Below are positions 5,142 through 57,877 of a DNA stretch of 64,000 nucleotides, in pieces. Source of the DNA: Coriobacteriia bacterium (GTDB lineage Bacteria; Actinomycetota; Coriobacteriia; Anaerosomatales; Anaerosomataceae); assembly GCA_030652115.1 (NCBI GenBank), contig JAUSBK010000003.1, positions 62,001 to 126,000 of the forward strand, written 5' to 3'. A program made the translations under genes and the position numbers. Under the pieces are notes generated by a model. It saw nothing but the letters and a program-made list of their open reading frames with translations, made no database searches and had not been told where the DNA came from. Within the stretch, counting starts at the first letter, position 1. Every line of letters begins with the position of its first letter.

Positions 5142-5262
5142 GCTCCGGCGCTCCGGCCCGGGTCTCGGGCGGCGGCATGTCGTGAACCTGGTCAGGTCCG
5201 GAAGGAAGCAGCCATAAGCGGCCTCTACCGGGTGTCCGGGGCTCGGGTCCGAGCGCCGGAGC
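5142..5262 (+). ncRNA. ffs: signal recognition particle RNA, small bacterial type
   Basis: The conserved SRP core is present: GTGAACCTGGTCAGGTCCGG at 5182-5201, followed by AAGGAAGCAGCC, the Ffh-binding symmetric and asymmetric loops. The ends pair perfectly as GCTCCGGCGCTC (5142-5153) with GAGCGCCGGAGC (5251-5262), forming the long hairpin of the short 4.5S-like RNA without an Alu domain. It carries the RNA scaffold of the SRP for cotranslational membrane targeting. The position immediately before dnaX is common in bacteria. Confidence 0.95.
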
Positions 5263-51533: not shown

Positions 51534-51562
51534 TTGACAACCTGAAGATAGGCTCGTAGAGG
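51534..51562 (+). promoter_or_regulatory. promoter of LPFTG cassette 1
   Basis: TTGACA (51534-51539), 17-base spacer, TAGAGG (51557-51562). The start site would be near 51569, at the 5' end of the leader RNA. The 190 bases between lon and this promoter contain nothing recognisable. Confidence 0.6.
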
Positions 51563-51660
51563 GAGACGCGGATACGTCGGACATATCCACGGTCACCGGA
51601 GTCCGACGAGGAGCCAATGGTGAGACCGGCCCGCCTAAGGGTCGGCCTTTGTTTTTTCAG
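51563..51660 (+). ncRNA. candidate riboswitch/attenuator leader, copy 1
   Basis: GGATA (51570-51574) pairs with TATCC (51584-51588), and its loop CGTCGGAC is complementary to GTCCGACG (51601-51608): a pseudoknot or a switch. CGGTCACC (51590-51597) can pair with GGTGAGACCG (51619-51628) across a 2-base bulge; the ACCG of that segment is also needed for the hairpin ACCGGCCC/GGGTCGGC (51625-51632, 51639-51646), which is followed by CTTTGTTTTTT. That is an antiterminator-terminator choice. A near-identical RNA precedes the next surface gene. No known class recognised. Confidence 0.65.
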
Positions 51661-51705
51661 CGAGTTTGGATTGGCTGCCAAAGGGCAGCCGGGGAGGTGC
51701 CTACA

Positions 51706-53898
51706 ATGACAAACACACTCTGGAGCAAGACACGGGGAGGGTCGTCCGGCACTCGGCTATTCGCCGCGTACCTGGCACTCGCACTCGTGGTAGCGATGGT
51801 GGGCCCGGGGCTTTCGGTGTTTGCGGCCGAGGGCCACGCCGGTGATGGGGAGGCGCCTGTAGAGGCGGTGCCCGTGGAGCCGGTGATAGAAGCACCCGTG
51901 GTTATCGTTGAAGAGCCGGTAGCCGAGAAACCCGAGTTCGTGGCGGAGGAGCCTGTTGTTGAGGTCGCCGCCCTCGAGTCGCTCGAAGTACCGGTTGTAA
52001 CGGTCGCCGCGGCTGCGGCTACTGTCGTGGCTTTGACCGCGCCCATACCCACACCCGATGACAGCAACTGGATCTGCGCCGGCGGCGTCAAGCTGGACGA
52101 GAATCCGCGAACCGGCACCTACACGTGGGACACGGCGAACACCGAGGAGACCCCGACCACTCCGTCGGACTACTCGATCACCATCACGACCTACCCCGGT
52201 CCTGACGGCGCGATGCTGATGGACTTCACGTCCAACTATCCGGTCGCGCAGGTCAAGGTCAAGGGCAGCGACGGCGCGCTGTTCTACAACTACAGTCCCG
52301 CGGTCACTTCGGCCACCGGGCTGCACGCGCCGGTGAATGCGTCCGGGAAGTACGCGGACATCAGCCACATCGTCTTCTGCTTCGGCACGATCGTGACGCC
52401 GGAGACCGGCGACCTCGATGTCTTCAAGTACCTGGATGCGAATGAGAACGAGAGCTACGACGACGGCGAAGAGATGCTCGCGGGCTGGGAGTTCAGCCTG
52501 TACGACGACGAGGATGCTCTCGTCGGGAGCGGCTCGACAGACGCGCTCGGCAAGCTTTCGTTCACGGGTCTGACCCCCGGCGACTACTACGTCACCGAGA
52601 CGCTCAAGCCTGGCTGGGAGAACACCACGCTGCTCACGCAGTCCATCACCGTTCTTGGTGACGGCACCGTGGAACTGTGGTTCGGCAACATCGAGACCGT
52701 GCTTCCGCCGACGACCGGCGACCTGATCATTTACAAGTTCGAGGACGACAATAGGAACGGCGTGCACGACCCCGGCGAGGCCATGCTGGCCGGCTGGGAG
52801 TTCACCGTGACCCTCGAGTCGCCTCCCATCCTCGATGTGGCGATTGGCGCCTCGGCGATCATGCCTATCGGCTCCGGTCTCACCGATGGTGCTGGCGAGC
52901 TCGAGTTCCTCGGTCTGCTTCCCGACACCTATACCGTGACCGAGACGCCTCAGCCCGGCTGGGACAACGTCACCCCGCTCGTGCAGACCGTCGAGGTCGT
53001 TGCTGGTCAGACCGCCGAGGTCTGGTTCGGCAACGTGCCCCAGGAGGAAGAGCCCGAAACGGGCGGCCTCATCATCTACAAGTACAACGATCTCAACCGG
53101 AACGGCGTTCATGACTTCGGCGAGCCGATGCTCGAGGACTGGGAGTTCACAGTCACGCGTGCGATCGACGGCCAGCTCGAAGTCATGCCTTCGGCCATCG
53201 CGGTCATCGGTAGCGGTCTTACCGATGAGTACGGCGAGCTGTACTTTGGCGGGCTGTGGCCGGGCGAGTACACCGTGACCGAAACGCCGCAGGAAGGGTG
53301 GGACAACATCACCCCGCTCGTCCAGACCGTTCAGGTCGTGGTTGGCGAGGACACCGAGGTTTGGTTCGGCAACGCCGAGGAGTTCCTGCCGTTCTCGTGG
53401 CTCGACCTTGCGATCACCAAGATGGCGAACAGGGAGACCGCTACCGAGGGTGCCCTGATCACCTACACGCTCACCTACTGGAACAACGGCAACATCCCCG
53501 CGGAGAACTACACGATCGTCGATGACTTCGACGAGCGCTACGTGTCCGTGGTCAATGCCAACGGCGGCGTCGTCTCGGGCGGCAAGATCACCTGGACGTT
53601 CTCCGGTCCGCTGACGCAGGAAGCCGGCAAGCAGACGCTCACTTACACCGTGCGCGTTTCGGCCAACATGCCTACAGGGACCACGAACGTCGATAACACA
53701 GTCGTCATCAGCCATCCGCGTGACGAGGATTCGTCCAACAACACGGCCAGGGAACGTGTGGTCGTGAGTGTGGTCGCGAGTTCGGGCGAACCGTTCCTGC
53801 CGTTCACCGGTGGGGACTACACCCTGTTGTTCGGATTCGCTGTGGCCATCGCGGCACTCGGACTGCTGCTTAGGTCACGGACGGATACCGCAGCGTAG
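51706..53898 (+). CDS. LPFTG-anchored surface protein with SdrD B-like repeats, copy 1
   Basis: A 730-residue wall protein. Signal peptide at residues about 15-40, then a Pro/Glu/Val-rich stalk and a unique domain (about 120-240). Three SdrD B/CnaB-like repeats follow, each with a Ca-site-like DxNxN(G/E)xxDxGE loop, a Lys in the first strand (VFKYLD, IYKFED, IYKYND), Glu in VTET and Asn in WFGN, as needed for internal isopeptide bonds. A DUF11-type domain (about 560-680) precedes the sortase signal LPFTG (698-702), a membrane segment and a basic tail. GGGGAGGTG precedes the ATG at 51706. Confidence 0.9.
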   Translation: MTNTLWSKTRGGSSGTRLFAAYLALALVVAMVGPGLSVFAAEGHAGDGEAPVEAVPVEPVIEAPVVIVEEPVAEKPEFVAEEPVVEVAALESLEVPVVTVAAAAATVVALTAPIPTPDDSNWICAGGVKLDENPRTGTYTWDTANTEETPTTPSDYSITITTYPGPDGAMLMDFTSNYPVAQVKVKGSDGALFYNYSPAVTSATGLHAPVNASGKYADISHIVFCFGTIVTPETGDLDVFKYLDANENESYDDGEEMLAGWEFSLYDDEDALVGSGSTDALGKLSFTGLTPGDYYVTETLKPGWENTTLLTQSITVLGDGTVELWFGNIETVLPPTTGDLIIYKFEDDNRNGVHDPGEAMLAGWEFTVTLESPPILDVAIGASAIMPIGSGLTDGAGELEFLGLLPDTYTVTETPQPGWDNVTPLVQTVEVVAGQTAEVWFGNVPQEEEPETGGLIIYKYNDLNRNGVHDFGEPMLEDWEFTVTRAIDGQLEVMPSAIAVIGSGLTDEYGELYFGGLWPGEYTVTETPQEGWDNITPLVQTVQVVVGEDTEVWFGNAEEFLPFSWLDLAITKMANRETATEGALITYTLTYWNNGNIPAENYTIVDDFDERYVSVVNANGGVVSGGKITWTFSGPLTQEAGKQTLTYTVRVSANMPTGTTNVDNTVVISHPRDEDSSNNTARERVVVSVVASSGEPFLPFTGGDYTLLFGFAVAIAALGLLLRSRTDTAA

Positions 53899-53954
53899 AG
53901 TGTGTGTGCTCTGATTCCGACTGGGACCGCACACAGGGGTCTCTAGGCTGCAGG

Positions 53955-53990
53955 GAGGCGCGTCTGCGAGAGCAGGCGCGCCTCTTAGTT
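53955..53990 (+). terminator. terminator of LPFTG cassette 1
   Basis: GAGGCGCGTCTGC (53955-53967) pairs along all 13 bases with 53972-53984 (one G-T pair), loop GAGA, followed by TTAGTTT. The same hairpin ends cassette 2. Confidence 0.85.
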
Positions 53991-54128
53991 TCCCGAGCCG
54001 GGTGGTGTGGTGACCGTGTGAGGAGCATTGCGCAGCCGTTCGTCGAGGGGCGTTGCCGTCTAGATGGTCGTTTTGTGCCGTACGTCACAATTCGCGTGCA
54101 ATCGCTGCGGAGTGGTACTAGTCTGAGG

Positions 54129-54159
54129 GCGGACCCGATCGCAGGGGTCCGCGTTGACA
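54129..54159 (+). promoter_or_regulatory. promoter region of LPFTG cassette 2
   Basis: TTGACA at 54154-54159, as in cassette 1; the matching -10 is unclear here. A perfect hairpin, GCGGACCC (54129-54136) with GGGTCCGC (54145-54152), ends one base before the -35. The region 53991-54128 holds nothing else recognisable. Confidence 0.4.
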
Positions 54160-54183
54160 TGCGTGGTTGCGAATAGCACGAAC

Positions 54184-54284
54184 AGGGAGCGCGGATACGT
54201 CGGAACTATCCACGGTCACCGGAGTCCGACGAGGAGCGAATGGTGAGACCGGCCCGCCCAAGGGTCGGCTTTGTCTTTTTTTGG
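54184..54284 (+). ncRNA. candidate riboswitch/attenuator leader, copy 2
   Basis: Near-identical to 51563-51660. GGATA (54193-54197) and TATCC (54207-54211) close a loop with CGTCGGA (54198-54204), complementary to TCCGACG (54225-54231). CGGTCACC (54213-54220) faces GGTGAGACCG (54242-54251), which competes with ACCGGCCC/GGGTCGGC, followed by TTTGTCTTTTTTT. Differences from copy 1 lie mainly in loops and at single positions. Same position relative to the second surface gene. Confidence 0.65.
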
Positions 54285-54335: not shown

Positions 54336-56120
54336 ATGCCGAGTAGACTGAACACGCTGTGGAAGAGAATCTCGGGAGGGGACCGGGGAAGGCGGGTCTT
54401 TGCCGTCTACATGGTGCTCGTCTTCGTGATCGGCGTGACGGCGCAGGGGATCGCGTCCTCCGCGTCTACCGACGAATCGACCACCACGCCGGAGCCGGTC
54501 GTTGTCGAGGAGCCGGTCGTCGTTGAGGAACCTGTCGCTATCGAGGAGCCGGTCGTTACCGAGGAACCGGTCGTTACCGAGGAACCGGTCGAGGCTCCTG
54601 CCGAGGAGACCCCGGCGCCTGTCGAGATACCTGCGGTAGAGTCGGCGCCTATCGAGGATGTCGCGCCGACCGCCGTCGCGCTTGCGCAGATCGCCACCAC
54701 CACCTTCCATGATGACGGCGCCGCAGACGCGTGGGGTAACGGTATCTACAACGGCACCGAAGAGGAGTGGCTCGCCGGCTTCGCGTACGACCTCTATGGC
54801 GGCTCGAGCGCGGACGGTCCCTGGACCTACATCACCTCGGCCACCAGTGACACCAACGGCGAAGCCGATCTCGGGGCACATCCCTACGGCTGGTACAAGG
54901 TCGTTCAGACGCTCACCGACGACCAGCTCTTCAACGGCTGGGAGTGCATGACGAGCGGCGGGGTGAAGATCTTCGAGGCCACCGGTGAGCAGAACCCGGG
55001 CCTGTGGTTCGGCCTCACCCAGCGGACCATCATCGAGGTCTACAAGTACAGCGACGATGATGAGGACGGCCGCCACGATGATGAAGAGGCCATGCTCTCC
55101 GGCTGGGAGTTCACCCTCTACGACAGCGCCGGCAACGAGCTCAGGTCCGGCCTGACGAACGATGACGGCTTGCTCGTCTTCTTCCCCGTGCCGAATGGCG
55201 CGTACCTGGTGACGGAGACCCCGCAGGCCGGCTGGGAGAACACGACGCCCCTGACACGTGAGCTTGCCATCAACGGCCAGTGCACGGAGGTTTGGTTCGG
55301 CAACAGCCGTGACCGTGGCGATCTCGAGGTCTACAAGTACTACGACGATGACGGGGACGGCGTGCACGACGGCATCGAGGACATGCTCGAGGGCTGGGAG
55401 TTCACGCTCTACGACAGCACGGGCGCAGTGGCCGACAGAGGCCTGACGGACGCAAACGGCCTGCTCGTCTTCAGCGACCTTACCCCCGGCGACTATACCG
55501 TCGTCGAGACGCTCAAGCCTGGTTGGAAGAACACGACCAGCCTCAGGCAGTCCGTCGTCGTGGTCGATGACGAAACCATGTCGGTCTGGTTCGGCAACGT
55601 GGAGTTCCAGCCCTTCACTGAACTCGATCTCGCTATCACCAAACTCGCGGATGACCACACCGTCGATGAGGGCCAGCTCGTGACCTACACGCTCACGTAC
55701 TGGAACCTCATGACCGAAGAGGACGCCTACGACTACACGATCGTTGACGACTACGACCAGCGCTACCTCACCATCGTGAACTCCAACGGAGGGACCGTTG
55801 CTGACGGCAAGATCAGCTGGAAGTTCGCCGGTCCGCTCTCCTACGAGATGGGCAAGCAGACCCTCACGTACACCGCGCGCGTCTCGGCAGACATGCCCGA
55901 CAAGACAACCTACATCGACAACGTTGTCGTCATCGACGACGACCGCGACTTCAACTACACGAACAACCGCGACGACGAGCGCGTCGTCTACAACCCGGGC
56001 GACCCGGACGACCCGTTCCTGCCGTTCACGGGTGGAGAGTATCGGATGTTGTTCGGATTCGCCGTGGCTGCGGCAGTGCTCGGACTGCTGCTCAGGCTAC
56101 GGACGGATAACGCGGCCTAG
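54336..56120 (+). CDS. LPFTG-anchored surface protein with SdrD B-like repeats, copy 2
   Basis: A 594-residue paralogue of 51706-53898. Signal peptide at about 20-45, a stalk of EEPVV-type six-residue repeats, a diverged CnaB-like domain (about 125-230), two SdrD B-like repeats (VYKYSDDDEDG..., VYKYYDDDGDG..., each with VTET/VVET and WFGN), a DUF11-type domain with the shared LDLAITKLAD...LTYTLTYWN-like pattern, then LPFTG (562-566), membrane helix and RLR tail. AAGGGGGG precedes the ATG at 54336. The shared leader, gene and terminator show that the whole cassette was duplicated. Confidence 0.9.
   Translation: MPSRLNTLWKRISGGDRGRRVFAVYMVLVFVIGVTAQGIASSASTDESTTTPEPVVVEEPVVVEEPVAIEEPVVTEEPVVTEEPVEAPAEETPAPVEIPAVESAPIEDVAPTAVALAQIATTTFHDDGAADAWGNGIYNGTEEEWLAGFAYDLYGGSSADGPWTYITSATSDTNGEADLGAHPYGWYKVVQTLTDDQLFNGWECMTSGGVKIFEATGEQNPGLWFGLTQRTIIEVYKYSDDDEDGRHDDEEAMLSGWEFTLYDSAGNELRSGLTNDDGLLVFFPVPNGAYLVTETPQAGWENTTPLTRELAINGQCTEVWFGNSRDRGDLEVYKYYDDDGDGVHDGIEDMLEGWEFTLYDSTGAVADRGLTDANGLLVFSDLTPGDYTVVETLKPGWKNTTSLRQSVVVVDDETMSVWFGNVEFQPFTELDLAITKLADDHTVDEGQLVTYTLTYWNLMTEEDAYDYTIVDDYDQRYLTIVNSNGGTVADGKISWKFAGPLSYEMGKQTLTYTARVSADMPDKTTYIDNVVVIDDDRDFNYTNNRDDERVVYNPGDPDDPFLPFTGGEYRMLFGFAVAAAVLGLLLRLRTDNAA
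54491..54592 (+). repeat. 18-base tandem repeats coding the EPVVxE stalk
   Basis: Five full units and part of a sixth of an 18-base repeat (GGAGCCGGTCGTT-like, 54491 onwards) encode six-residue EEPVVx units of the wall-spanning stalk. Unit number may vary by slippage between strains. Confidence 0.75.
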
Positions 56121-56290: not shown

Positions 56291-56875
56291 CTAGTTGGGG
56301 GGAACGTTCTCGCCCCAGTCGATGACGCCGTTGTCGCGGTAGTCGATGATGTGCCAGATCTCGTGGCCGATGATCCTTGAGAGGCTCGCGGTGTGCGTCG
56401 GGCTGATCACGATGCGGCCTGACTTGTAGTACGCCACTGCCTGGTAGCCGCTTGCGTCACCGAAGGTCACCGAGGTGCCGGCGAGGATCGGGTACTGTGC
56501 GATGTATCCCGCAAGGATGCTCTGCGCTTGGGCCAGTTCGTCGCCGGAGGCGGCAGGGGCGGCGGCGGTCGCCGAGCCGGTGCTCACCGTGCGGGTCGTG
56601 GACCGCGTGGTAACGACCGGCTGGATGACCGTCTCGGTCCGAGCGCGAGCGGTGAAGCTTGTGGAGAGCGGCTGCTCGGTTGCCACAGCCAGCTTGGTGG
56701 CGGTCGTGGTGCTCGCGGTGATCTTGCTCCTGAAGTCCGACGCCCGGGTGGCCGCGTCAGCGGCGACGGCGTTCGGCAGGATGCCTGCCACGAGGGTGAG
56801 GGTCAAAGCTGCCGTGATGGTGGTCGCGGCGAAGCGGAGCCAGCGGCTCTTGCCCCAGTTGGTCTTGCTTGCCAT
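56291..56875 (-). CDS. exported protein with C-terminal HExxH motif
   Basis: A 194-residue protein. The signal peptide (about 10-38) is followed by a Thr/Ala-rich linker, then a compact C-terminal domain ending GHEIWHIIDYRDNG (H171, E172, H175), a zincin-type HExxH. A third metal ligand cannot be identified with certainty, and the chain stops only about 20 residues later, short for a complete metallopeptidase. Similar endings occur in uncharacterised actinobacterial exported proteins. ATG 56875 has AAGGGGCG upstream; a start 70 codons earlier lies in the riboswitch and is rejected. Controlled by the c-di-GMP-I riboswitch at 56965-57060. Confidence 0.75.
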   Translation of the reverse strand: MASKTNWGKSRWLRFAATTITAALTLTLVAGILPNAVAADAATRASDFRSKITASTTTATKLAVATEQPLSTSFTARARTETVIQPVVTTRSTTRTVSTGSATAAAPAASGDELAQAQSILAGYIAQYPILAGTSVTFGDASGYQAVAYYKSGRIVISPTHTASLSRIIGHEIWHIIDYRDNGVIDWGENVPPN

Positions 56876-56907
56876 TCGAATCGCCCCTTGTCCGAGTTCC
56901 CGCGCAC

Positions 56908-56964: not shown

Positions 56965-57060
56965 TCGAACCTTCGGTAATCCGGCTGTCGTGGGAAGCGA
57001 GGCTTCCTTTAGACCCGTGACTTTGCGGAGCTGGCCTTTCGACCGGCTGTGCCTTTTCGG
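56965..57060 (-). ncRNA. c-di-GMP-I (GEMM) riboswitch
   Basis: Read on the minus strand, the aptamer shows AGCCGG-TCGAAAGG near its 5' end, the conserved CCGCAAAGTCACGGGTCTAAAGG block (complement of 57007-57029), then GACAGCCGGATTACCG (complement of 56974-56989). This matches the class I layout: GAAA-type tetraloop, GCAAAG, the receptor-side CUAA, and the closing GGUUACC-like strand. It precedes the HExxH gene by about 90 bases. The remaining gap 57061-57205 holds the divergent start region of the sortase gene. Confidence 0.85.
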
Positions 57061-57205
57061 GAGCGTTCCGATGTTCGCTTTTCAAACACTTACACTGTGT
57101 CTATCGGCACTGGTGCTGTGGACTTGAGTCCGTTTGTGGCATTCGTCACAGGTTTCATGTGCGTGCCGTCACAGCCTGAGCACGGCGAGAGGAGGGTCAG
57201 GCCCC

Positions 57206-57877
57206 ATGAAGCGCTCTGCGCGATGGACCCGTGCGGCGAGCAATCTCCTGCTCGGCGTGGCGCTCGGACTCCTCTCGTACTACACCCTCACAACGCTGCT
57301 CACCGAGGTCGCCCAGCGTGACCTCCGTGACGAGCACGCTGACGTCGTGGCGTTCGCGGCGGAGGATCCCGAAGCGTCGCTCGAGACGTCAGCCGGCCCC
57401 GCGCTCGACTTCACCGGGTGGAGTGAGCAGGACGAGACGTACTGGGTCGCGCTCGCCGAAGGCGAGGCCTTCGGCAGGATCGTCATCCCTGTTATCGGCC
57501 TGGATGCGATCGTCATGAACGGTGTCAGCCCAAACGATCTTCGCCGTGGCCCCGGCTGGATCGACTGGACGGATCTGCCCGGGCCCACAGGCACCTGCGG
57601 CATCTCGGGGCATCGCACGACGTACGGCGCCCCGTTCCGCCGCGTGGATGAACTCAAACCGGGTGATACCATCGACGTGTACTCGCCGTACCGCCGCTAC
57701 CGCTACGAGGTCACCGGCACGCTCATCGTGCTGCCGAGTCAGACCGAGGTGGTGGATTCGACCGAGCAGCCGACGCTGACGCTCACCGCATGCCATCCGC
57801 TGTACAGCGCGGCGTACCGGATCGCGGTCCAGGCCAAGCTCGTGGACGTGCGGCTCGTCGAGGCAACCGAGGAGTAG
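57206..57877 (+). CDS. srt: sortase (class D/E-like)
   Basis: A 223-residue membrane-anchored transpeptidase. N-terminal helix at about 12-35, then the sortase barrel with catalytic H136 (CGISGHRTTYGAPF), C196 (TLTACHP) and R205. The TLTAC form and overall length suggest class D or E. It is the only sortase in the window and lies beside two LPFTG proteins, which are its likely substrates. AGGAGGG precedes the ATG at 57206; an earlier in-frame start is rejected. Confidence 0.93.
   Translation: MKRSARWTRAASNLLLGVALGLLSYYTLTTLLTEVAQRDLRDEHADVVAFAAEDPEASLETSAGPALDFTGWSEQDETYWVALAEGEAFGRIVIPVIGLDAIVMNGVSPNDLRRGPGWIDWTDLPGPTGTCGISGHRTTYGAPFRRVDELKPGDTIDVYSPYRRYRYEVTGTLIVLPSQTEVVDSTEQPTLTLTACHPLYSAAYRIAVQAKLVDVRLVEATEE

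Follow-up and report, generated by a model that had tools for sequence, protein, structure and literature searches.

The adhesin locus

The window analysed here, i.e., a stretch of 64,000 nucleotides from contig JAUSBK010000003.1 of a Coriobacteriia bacterium, harbours two genes for LPFTG surface adhesins that are each preceded by a leader RNA, together with a gene on the opposite strand that encodes a secreted protein (referred to as HEIWH protein) and a sortase gene divergent from the latter (Table 1). As described in an earlier note on this DNA, the two leaders are nearly identical and both precede LPFTG genes. The leaders were found to share 91% identity over 91 nt, and the LPFTG proteins are secreted and carry SpaA/SdrD_B and DUF11 domains. 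That note recognized the adhesin leaders, but overlooked the HEIWH protein, the c-di-GMP-I aptamer in front of its gene and the sortase. Elsewhere in the window, a bacterial small SRP RNA was found at 5156–5251 (RF00169, 67.3 bits). Among related loci, the C-termini of the GAG targets of L070, L076, L093 and L155 show a doubled LPFT motif immediately ahead of their sorting signal, as in EPFLPFTEPFLPFTG, which could be a spare anchor or cleavage site.

Table 1. Coordinates of the features at the adhesin locus, numbered from the first nucleotide of the window.
Feature	Position	Strand	Remarks
c-di-GMP-II-GAG aptamer, copy 1	51553–51640	+	RF03169, 55.3 bits; covariation in relatives
P1 core, copy 1	51561–51563/51630–51632	+	
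P3, copy 1	51575–51581/51602–51608	+	
Pseudoknot, copy 1	51590–51597/51619–51628	+	
Intrinsic terminator, copy 1	51626–51657	+	CCGGCCC/GGGTCGG and T-rich tail; –14.3 kcal/mol
LPFTG surface adhesin 1	51706–53898	+	730 aa; SpaA/SdrD_B repeats, DUF11
c-di-GMP-II-GAG aptamer, copy 2	54176–54263	+	RF03169, 51.5 bits
Intrinsic terminator, copy 2	54249–54283	+	T-rich tail; –14.3 kcal/mol
LPFTG surface adhesin 2	54336–56120	+	594 aa; SpaA/SdrD_B, DUF11
Secreted HEIWH protein, putative minimal zincin	56291–56875	–	194 aa; no Pfam family
Shine-Dalgarno region of HEIWH gene	56877–56887	–	GGGGCGATTCG; can pair with 57070–57060
c-di-GMP-I aptamer upstream of HEIWH gene	56972–57063	–	RF01051, 60.8 bits
Anti-Shine-Dalgarno strand	57060–57070	–	CGGAACGCTCC; just 5′ of the c-di-GMP-I aptamer, overlapping its first bases
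Sortase, divergent from HEIWH gene	57206–57877	+	class E as best match in NCBIfam, though under the cut-off

Both leaders belong to the c-di-GMP-II-GAG class

In an Rfam search, both leader copies matched RF03169 (c-di-GMP-II-GAG) over model positions 1–86, i.e., its full length, with E-values of 3e-8 and 3e-7 and with scores (Table 1) well above the gathering score of 40. Moreover, the GAG signature, which was taken as G67 A68 G69 in 3Q3Z numbering from two Rfam consensus lines, was present as GUGAGACC in both window copies. Both leaders are members of this known, though little studied, RNA class. The earlier note had presented them as unclassified and as possibly a new cis-regulatory RNA, while adding that a strong Rfam match would remove the novelty; because such a match was found, the novelty is gone, and the candidate of a new RNA class was rejected.

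The pairings put forward in that note find a place in the known fold. CGTCGGA and TCCGACG do pair, but they constitute the P3 hairpin stem itself rather than a contact between a loop and a distant segment. Similarly, CGGTCACC is able to pair with GGTGAGACCG, but this pairing, in which the P3 loop contacts the 3′ strand, is the pseudoknot of the aptamer and not an antiterminator. Covariation, which had been proposed as a check on the stems, was observed for P1, P2 and P3 among 73 GAG aptamers from relatives: pairing held in 92.2% of the cells, both sides of a pair had changed in 150 cells (versus 53 in shuffles), and the covariation score was 0.266 (versus at most 0.090 for slid structures). 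The pseudoknot was paired in 99.8% of the cells, and because seven of its eight pairs never vary among the GAG copies, covariation within this class is hardly informative for it. Between classes, the canonical G40-C68 pair is replaced by U40-A68 in GAG aptamers, i.e., a pair-for-pair exchange. Two loci (L108:6531-7236 and L110:6709-7416) carry tandem GAG aptamers ca. 620 nt apart, the upstream one being followed by short ORFs only and lacking an adhesin gene of its own.

The aptamer shares a strand with an intrinsic terminator

The terminator hairpin with a T-run that had been read from the sequence was found in both copies, as 7-bp stems (51626–51645 and 54249–54268) followed by a T tail. The 5′ arm of the copy 1 terminator overlaps the 3′ strand of the aptamer and, more generally, the aptamer strand GACCGRCCC served as the 5′ arm of a T-tailed terminator hairpin in 63 of the 75 GAG copies retrieved from the order (see below), versus 5% in shuffles. 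Position R77 of the terminator covaried with its partner (G-C in 29, A-T in 16, G-T in 9 and A-C in 1). Rfam matches, covariation and terminator overlap all place the leaders far above chance. Aptamer and terminator are mutually exclusive, and the idea of an attenuator, controlled by a ligand or factor and situated in front of sortase-anchored adhesin genes, is supported. Since the two structures exclude each other, ligand binding should favour read-through, and the overlap predicts a transcriptional ON switch for the GAG leaders.

The TTGACA at 51534–51539, on the other hand, which had been proposed as a –35 box, is doubtful, because a 17-nt spacer would put the transcriptional start inside the aptamer (P1/P2); a promoter scan found no sigma-70 site near it. 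Many of the GAG copies that do not precede adhesin genes (e.g., L108, L156, L161 and L177) lack a TTGACA-like box and in its place have GGGTA(T) at 20–45 nt ahead of the aptamer, which suggests a different sigma factor.

GAG and canonical aptamers precede disjoint gene sets

Searching 61 genomes of the order with RF03169 yielded 111 hits, of which 106 were fetched. Treating these as one family was rejected: because the model also picks up canonical c-di-GMP-II copies, the hits were split by core motif into 75 GAG copies (CGGUCAC/GUGAGACC) and 31 canonical copies (UGGGC(A/G)C/G(U/C)GCAACC), with most of the tested canonical copies being assigned to RF01786 by cmscan. Sites 37, 40, 68 and 69 change together between both classes. 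The 3Q3Z numbering was mapped here through a sequence that agrees with the published contact list. GAG aptamers differ from canonical ones at U37, C68 and A69, which are listed as c-di-GMP contacts in 3Q3Z (PMC7288161). A type-II aptamer outside the order (L274, reverse strand 1585–1501) has the core UGGUCAC/GUGAAACC, with the 40-68 pair exchanged but U37 and A69 kept; this intermediate between canonical and GAG indicates that the 40-68 exchange can occur alone.

The downstream genes separate along the same line. Multihaem proteins (at least three CxxCH motifs) were targets of 0/74 GAG versus 23/26 canonical aptamers, and LPxT C-termini were present in 31/59 versus 0/19 of the complete targets, respectively. 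The remaining GAG targets that were sampled are secreted as well and, for the most part, lack confident Pfam domains. In the 24 genomes with both aptamer classes, the target sets are disjoint. The multihaem cytochrome genes behind canonical aptamers of the order (e.g., L140, L168 and L190) contain 10–41 CxxCH motifs, and a T-box leader (L174:2382-2643; RF00230, 104 bits) lies downstream of one such cytochrome locus. The canonical copy in the genome of the window itself (G000:C11:127930-128014) is located at a contig end, with its downstream gene out of view.

An adhesin-HEIWH-sortase module recurs across the order

The survey of the 61 genomes gave 50 HEIWH matches and revealed that the adhesin-HEIWH-sortase module recurs across this one order of Coriobacteriia. 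A c-di-GMP-I aptamer was located 72–430 nt upstream of 41 of the 50 HEIWH genes. In 28 HEIWH loci, type-II aptamers were present at a distance of up to 8 kb; these 32 aptamers were without exception of the GAG class and convergent with the HEIWH gene, and 29 of them preceded an LPxT protein. Of 49 loci, 44 had a divergent sortase gene 176–1445 nt upstream of HEIWH; the remainder comprised two loci cut by contig ends and three paralogues without a c-di-GMP-I aptamer. Second HEIWH paralogues that lack both this aptamer and an adjacent sortase occur in L113, L115 and L116.

The HEIWH protein itself contains an HExxH zinc motif. Across 48 HEIWH sequences H171, E172 and H175, as well as D178, W187 and E189, were invariant. 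No Pfam family was common to the 48 members (one had a stray weak TPR match), and assignment to PPEP or to any named family was rejected, as neither Pfam and NCBIfam nor the PDB sequences yielded a match. An AlphaFold2 model was confident for the catalytic domain (residues 110–180, pLDDT 94–98). Its best Foldseek matches in the PDB, all weak, were minigluzincins (selecase 4qhi with an E-value of 0.02 and a probability of 1.00; TM-score of ca. 0.5 by target length), and no PPEP structure was among the 50 best matches. Judged by this model, the protein is a likely candidate for a minimal zincin, and its putative metalloprotease activity is assumed from the HExxH motif. According to named records, the family occurs in Coriobacteriia, Anaerosomatales among them, and mostly in environmental MAGs. 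It would represent a putative protease family without an entry in Pfam or NCBIfam.

The c-di-GMP-I leader may sequester the HEIWH Shine-Dalgarno region

In 31 leaders, the segment just 5′ of the c-di-GMP-I aptamer can pair with the Shine-Dalgarno region ca. 170 nt downstream. Because the structure expected for these leaders was only partly recovered by RNAalifold, specific duplexes were tested. With sequence relatedness only partly controlled by the permutations, the cognate anti-Shine-Dalgarno helix had a mean energy of –16.8 versus –14.0 kcal/mol when permuted, and a second helix, between the 3′ flank of the aptamer and the segment before the Shine-Dalgarno region, of –15.0 versus –11.5, with 0 of 2000 permutations being as good in either case. 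With a shuffled flank, the anti-Shine-Dalgarno helix of the 31 leaders weakened to –9.7. Both helices together form a junction of which the aptamer is one arm. This arrangement suggests an OFF switch, in which the ligand would stabilise the junction and hide the Shine-Dalgarno region. The second c-di-GMP-I aptamer of this genome (L132, G000:C1:432205-432296) had no HEIWH gene matched downstream.

Proposed mechanism and alternative explanations

The best explanation for these observations, to which we assign a probability of roughly 0.6, is that the leaders are c-di-GMP-II-GAG riboswitches of the transcriptional ON attenuator type that, together with an OFF leader on HEIWH, place adhesins and putative protease under inverse control. 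Upon binding of a cyclic dinucleotide, most likely c-di-GMP, the pseudoknot and P1 would hold the strand GGUGAGACCGGCCC; with this strand also being the 5′ arm of the terminator, termination would be blocked and the LPFTG adhesin made, whereas the terminator would win when no ligand is bound. On the opposite strand, ligand would close the c-di-GMP-I aptamer, stabilise the form with the sequestered Shine-Dalgarno region and turn HEIWH off. Opposite responses to c-di-GMP are in this way predicted from sequence, ON by the terminator overlap and OFF by the anti-Shine-Dalgarno helix. At high messenger levels, the cell would produce adhesins and the adjacent sortase would anchor them; at low levels, adhesin transcription would stop and the putative protease would be made, possibly releasing the adhesins.

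With regard to the ligand, all 61 genomes searched encode GGDEF proteins, and a GAG-carrying genome without GGDEF, which would have been a case against c-di-GMP, was sought among them but not encountered. In this genome, the clear GGDEF domains have Asp at the specificity site, where Hypr cGAMP synthases carry Ser (PMC6456294). This favours c-di-GMP, while being compatible with other messengers, and no report of a GAG ligand was found in the literature searched.

The concerted change of sites 37, 40, 68 and 69 over the 75 GAG and 31 canonical copies, the inclusion of ligand contacts among these sites (PMC7288161) and the disjoint targets in the 24 genomes with both kinds could also mean that GAG aptamers sense a different messenger (e.g., 3′,3′-cGAMP or another cyclic dinucleotide), so that adhesins and cytochromes answer two signals. 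We consider this rather unlikely, as every module that has both shows the GAG aptamer convergent with the c-di-GMP-I gene, the clear GGDEF domains in this genome lack the Hypr serine, and the leaders may each just have been passed on together with their gene family. Marginally less likely still is the complete scenario in which sibling riboswitches would assign adhesins and extracellular cytochromes to two signals, the protease answering to c-di-GMP and the GAG aptamers recognising something else. Because both classes serve disjoint targets in the 24 genomes, and the convergent c-di-GMP-I gene provides an internal reference, the ligand question is directly testable.

Alternatively, the switches might be independent, with HEIWH acting elsewhere (e.g., in the maturation of sortase or the turnover of the envelope) and the neighbourhood being just one envelope cluster. 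HEIWH-sortase pairs in which no c-di-GMP-I aptamer was detected (G032, G042, G045 and G058) fit such independence, and no substrate site for HEIWH was identified. What argues against it, and leaves it doubtful, is that a convergent GAG aptamer is present in all 28 HEIWH loci that have type-II aptamers at up to 8 kb, 29 of these 32 aptamers having LPxT targets. Finally, that the leaders would form a new attenuator class is extremely improbable, for although their attenuator anatomy is real, they match RF03169 from end to end.

Comparison with known systems

The window RNAs do not differ from RF03169 and have the same P1, P2, P3, pseudoknot and GUGAGACCG signature. To that class, the present analysis adds the genes and the module to which it belongs, together with a count of the terminator overlap in 75 copies. 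Weinberg et al. reportedly separated the GAG variant from canonical c-di-GMP-II in 2017 by differing binding-site bases. Canonical c-di-GMP-II (RF01786) has the same fold, and its terminator likewise lies on the aptamer 3′ strand (18 of 31 copies), but its core is UGGGCAC/GUGCAACC instead of that of the GAG copies, and its targets in these genomes are multihaem cytochromes. The cGAMP riboswitches and Hypr GGDEF enzymes of Geobacter offer a parallel, in that a variant c-di-GMP aptamer there has a gene set of its own as well (PMC7266159, PMC6456294); those riboswitches, however, are built on a class I scaffold, and no Hypr signature is seen in the clear GGDEF domains here. The minigluzincins selecase, abylysin and jannalysin are small HExxH zincins like the putative one described here; HEIWH differs in being secreted and in lacking any sequence match to them, the structural match being at an E-value of 0.02 only.

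The module also resembles a circuit of Clostridioides difficile, in which class I riboswitches are OFF and class II mostly ON switches, and in which PPEP-1 and its LPXTG substrates are inversely regulated (PMC11477304). As with CD2831/CD3246 and PPEP-1, type-II aptamers precede LPXTG adhesins and a type-I aptamer precedes a secreted, here putative, metalloprotease (PMC11477304). The present module differs in its phylum, its GAG variant aptamer and its sortase gene; moreover, HEIWH does not belong to the PPEP family, and its type-I leader looks translational. The Coriobacteriia module is not a member of the C. difficile system, but resembles its logic on paper and, if the proposed inverse control is true, would independently exemplify, in uncultured Coriobacteriia, the choice between adherence and release known from that species.
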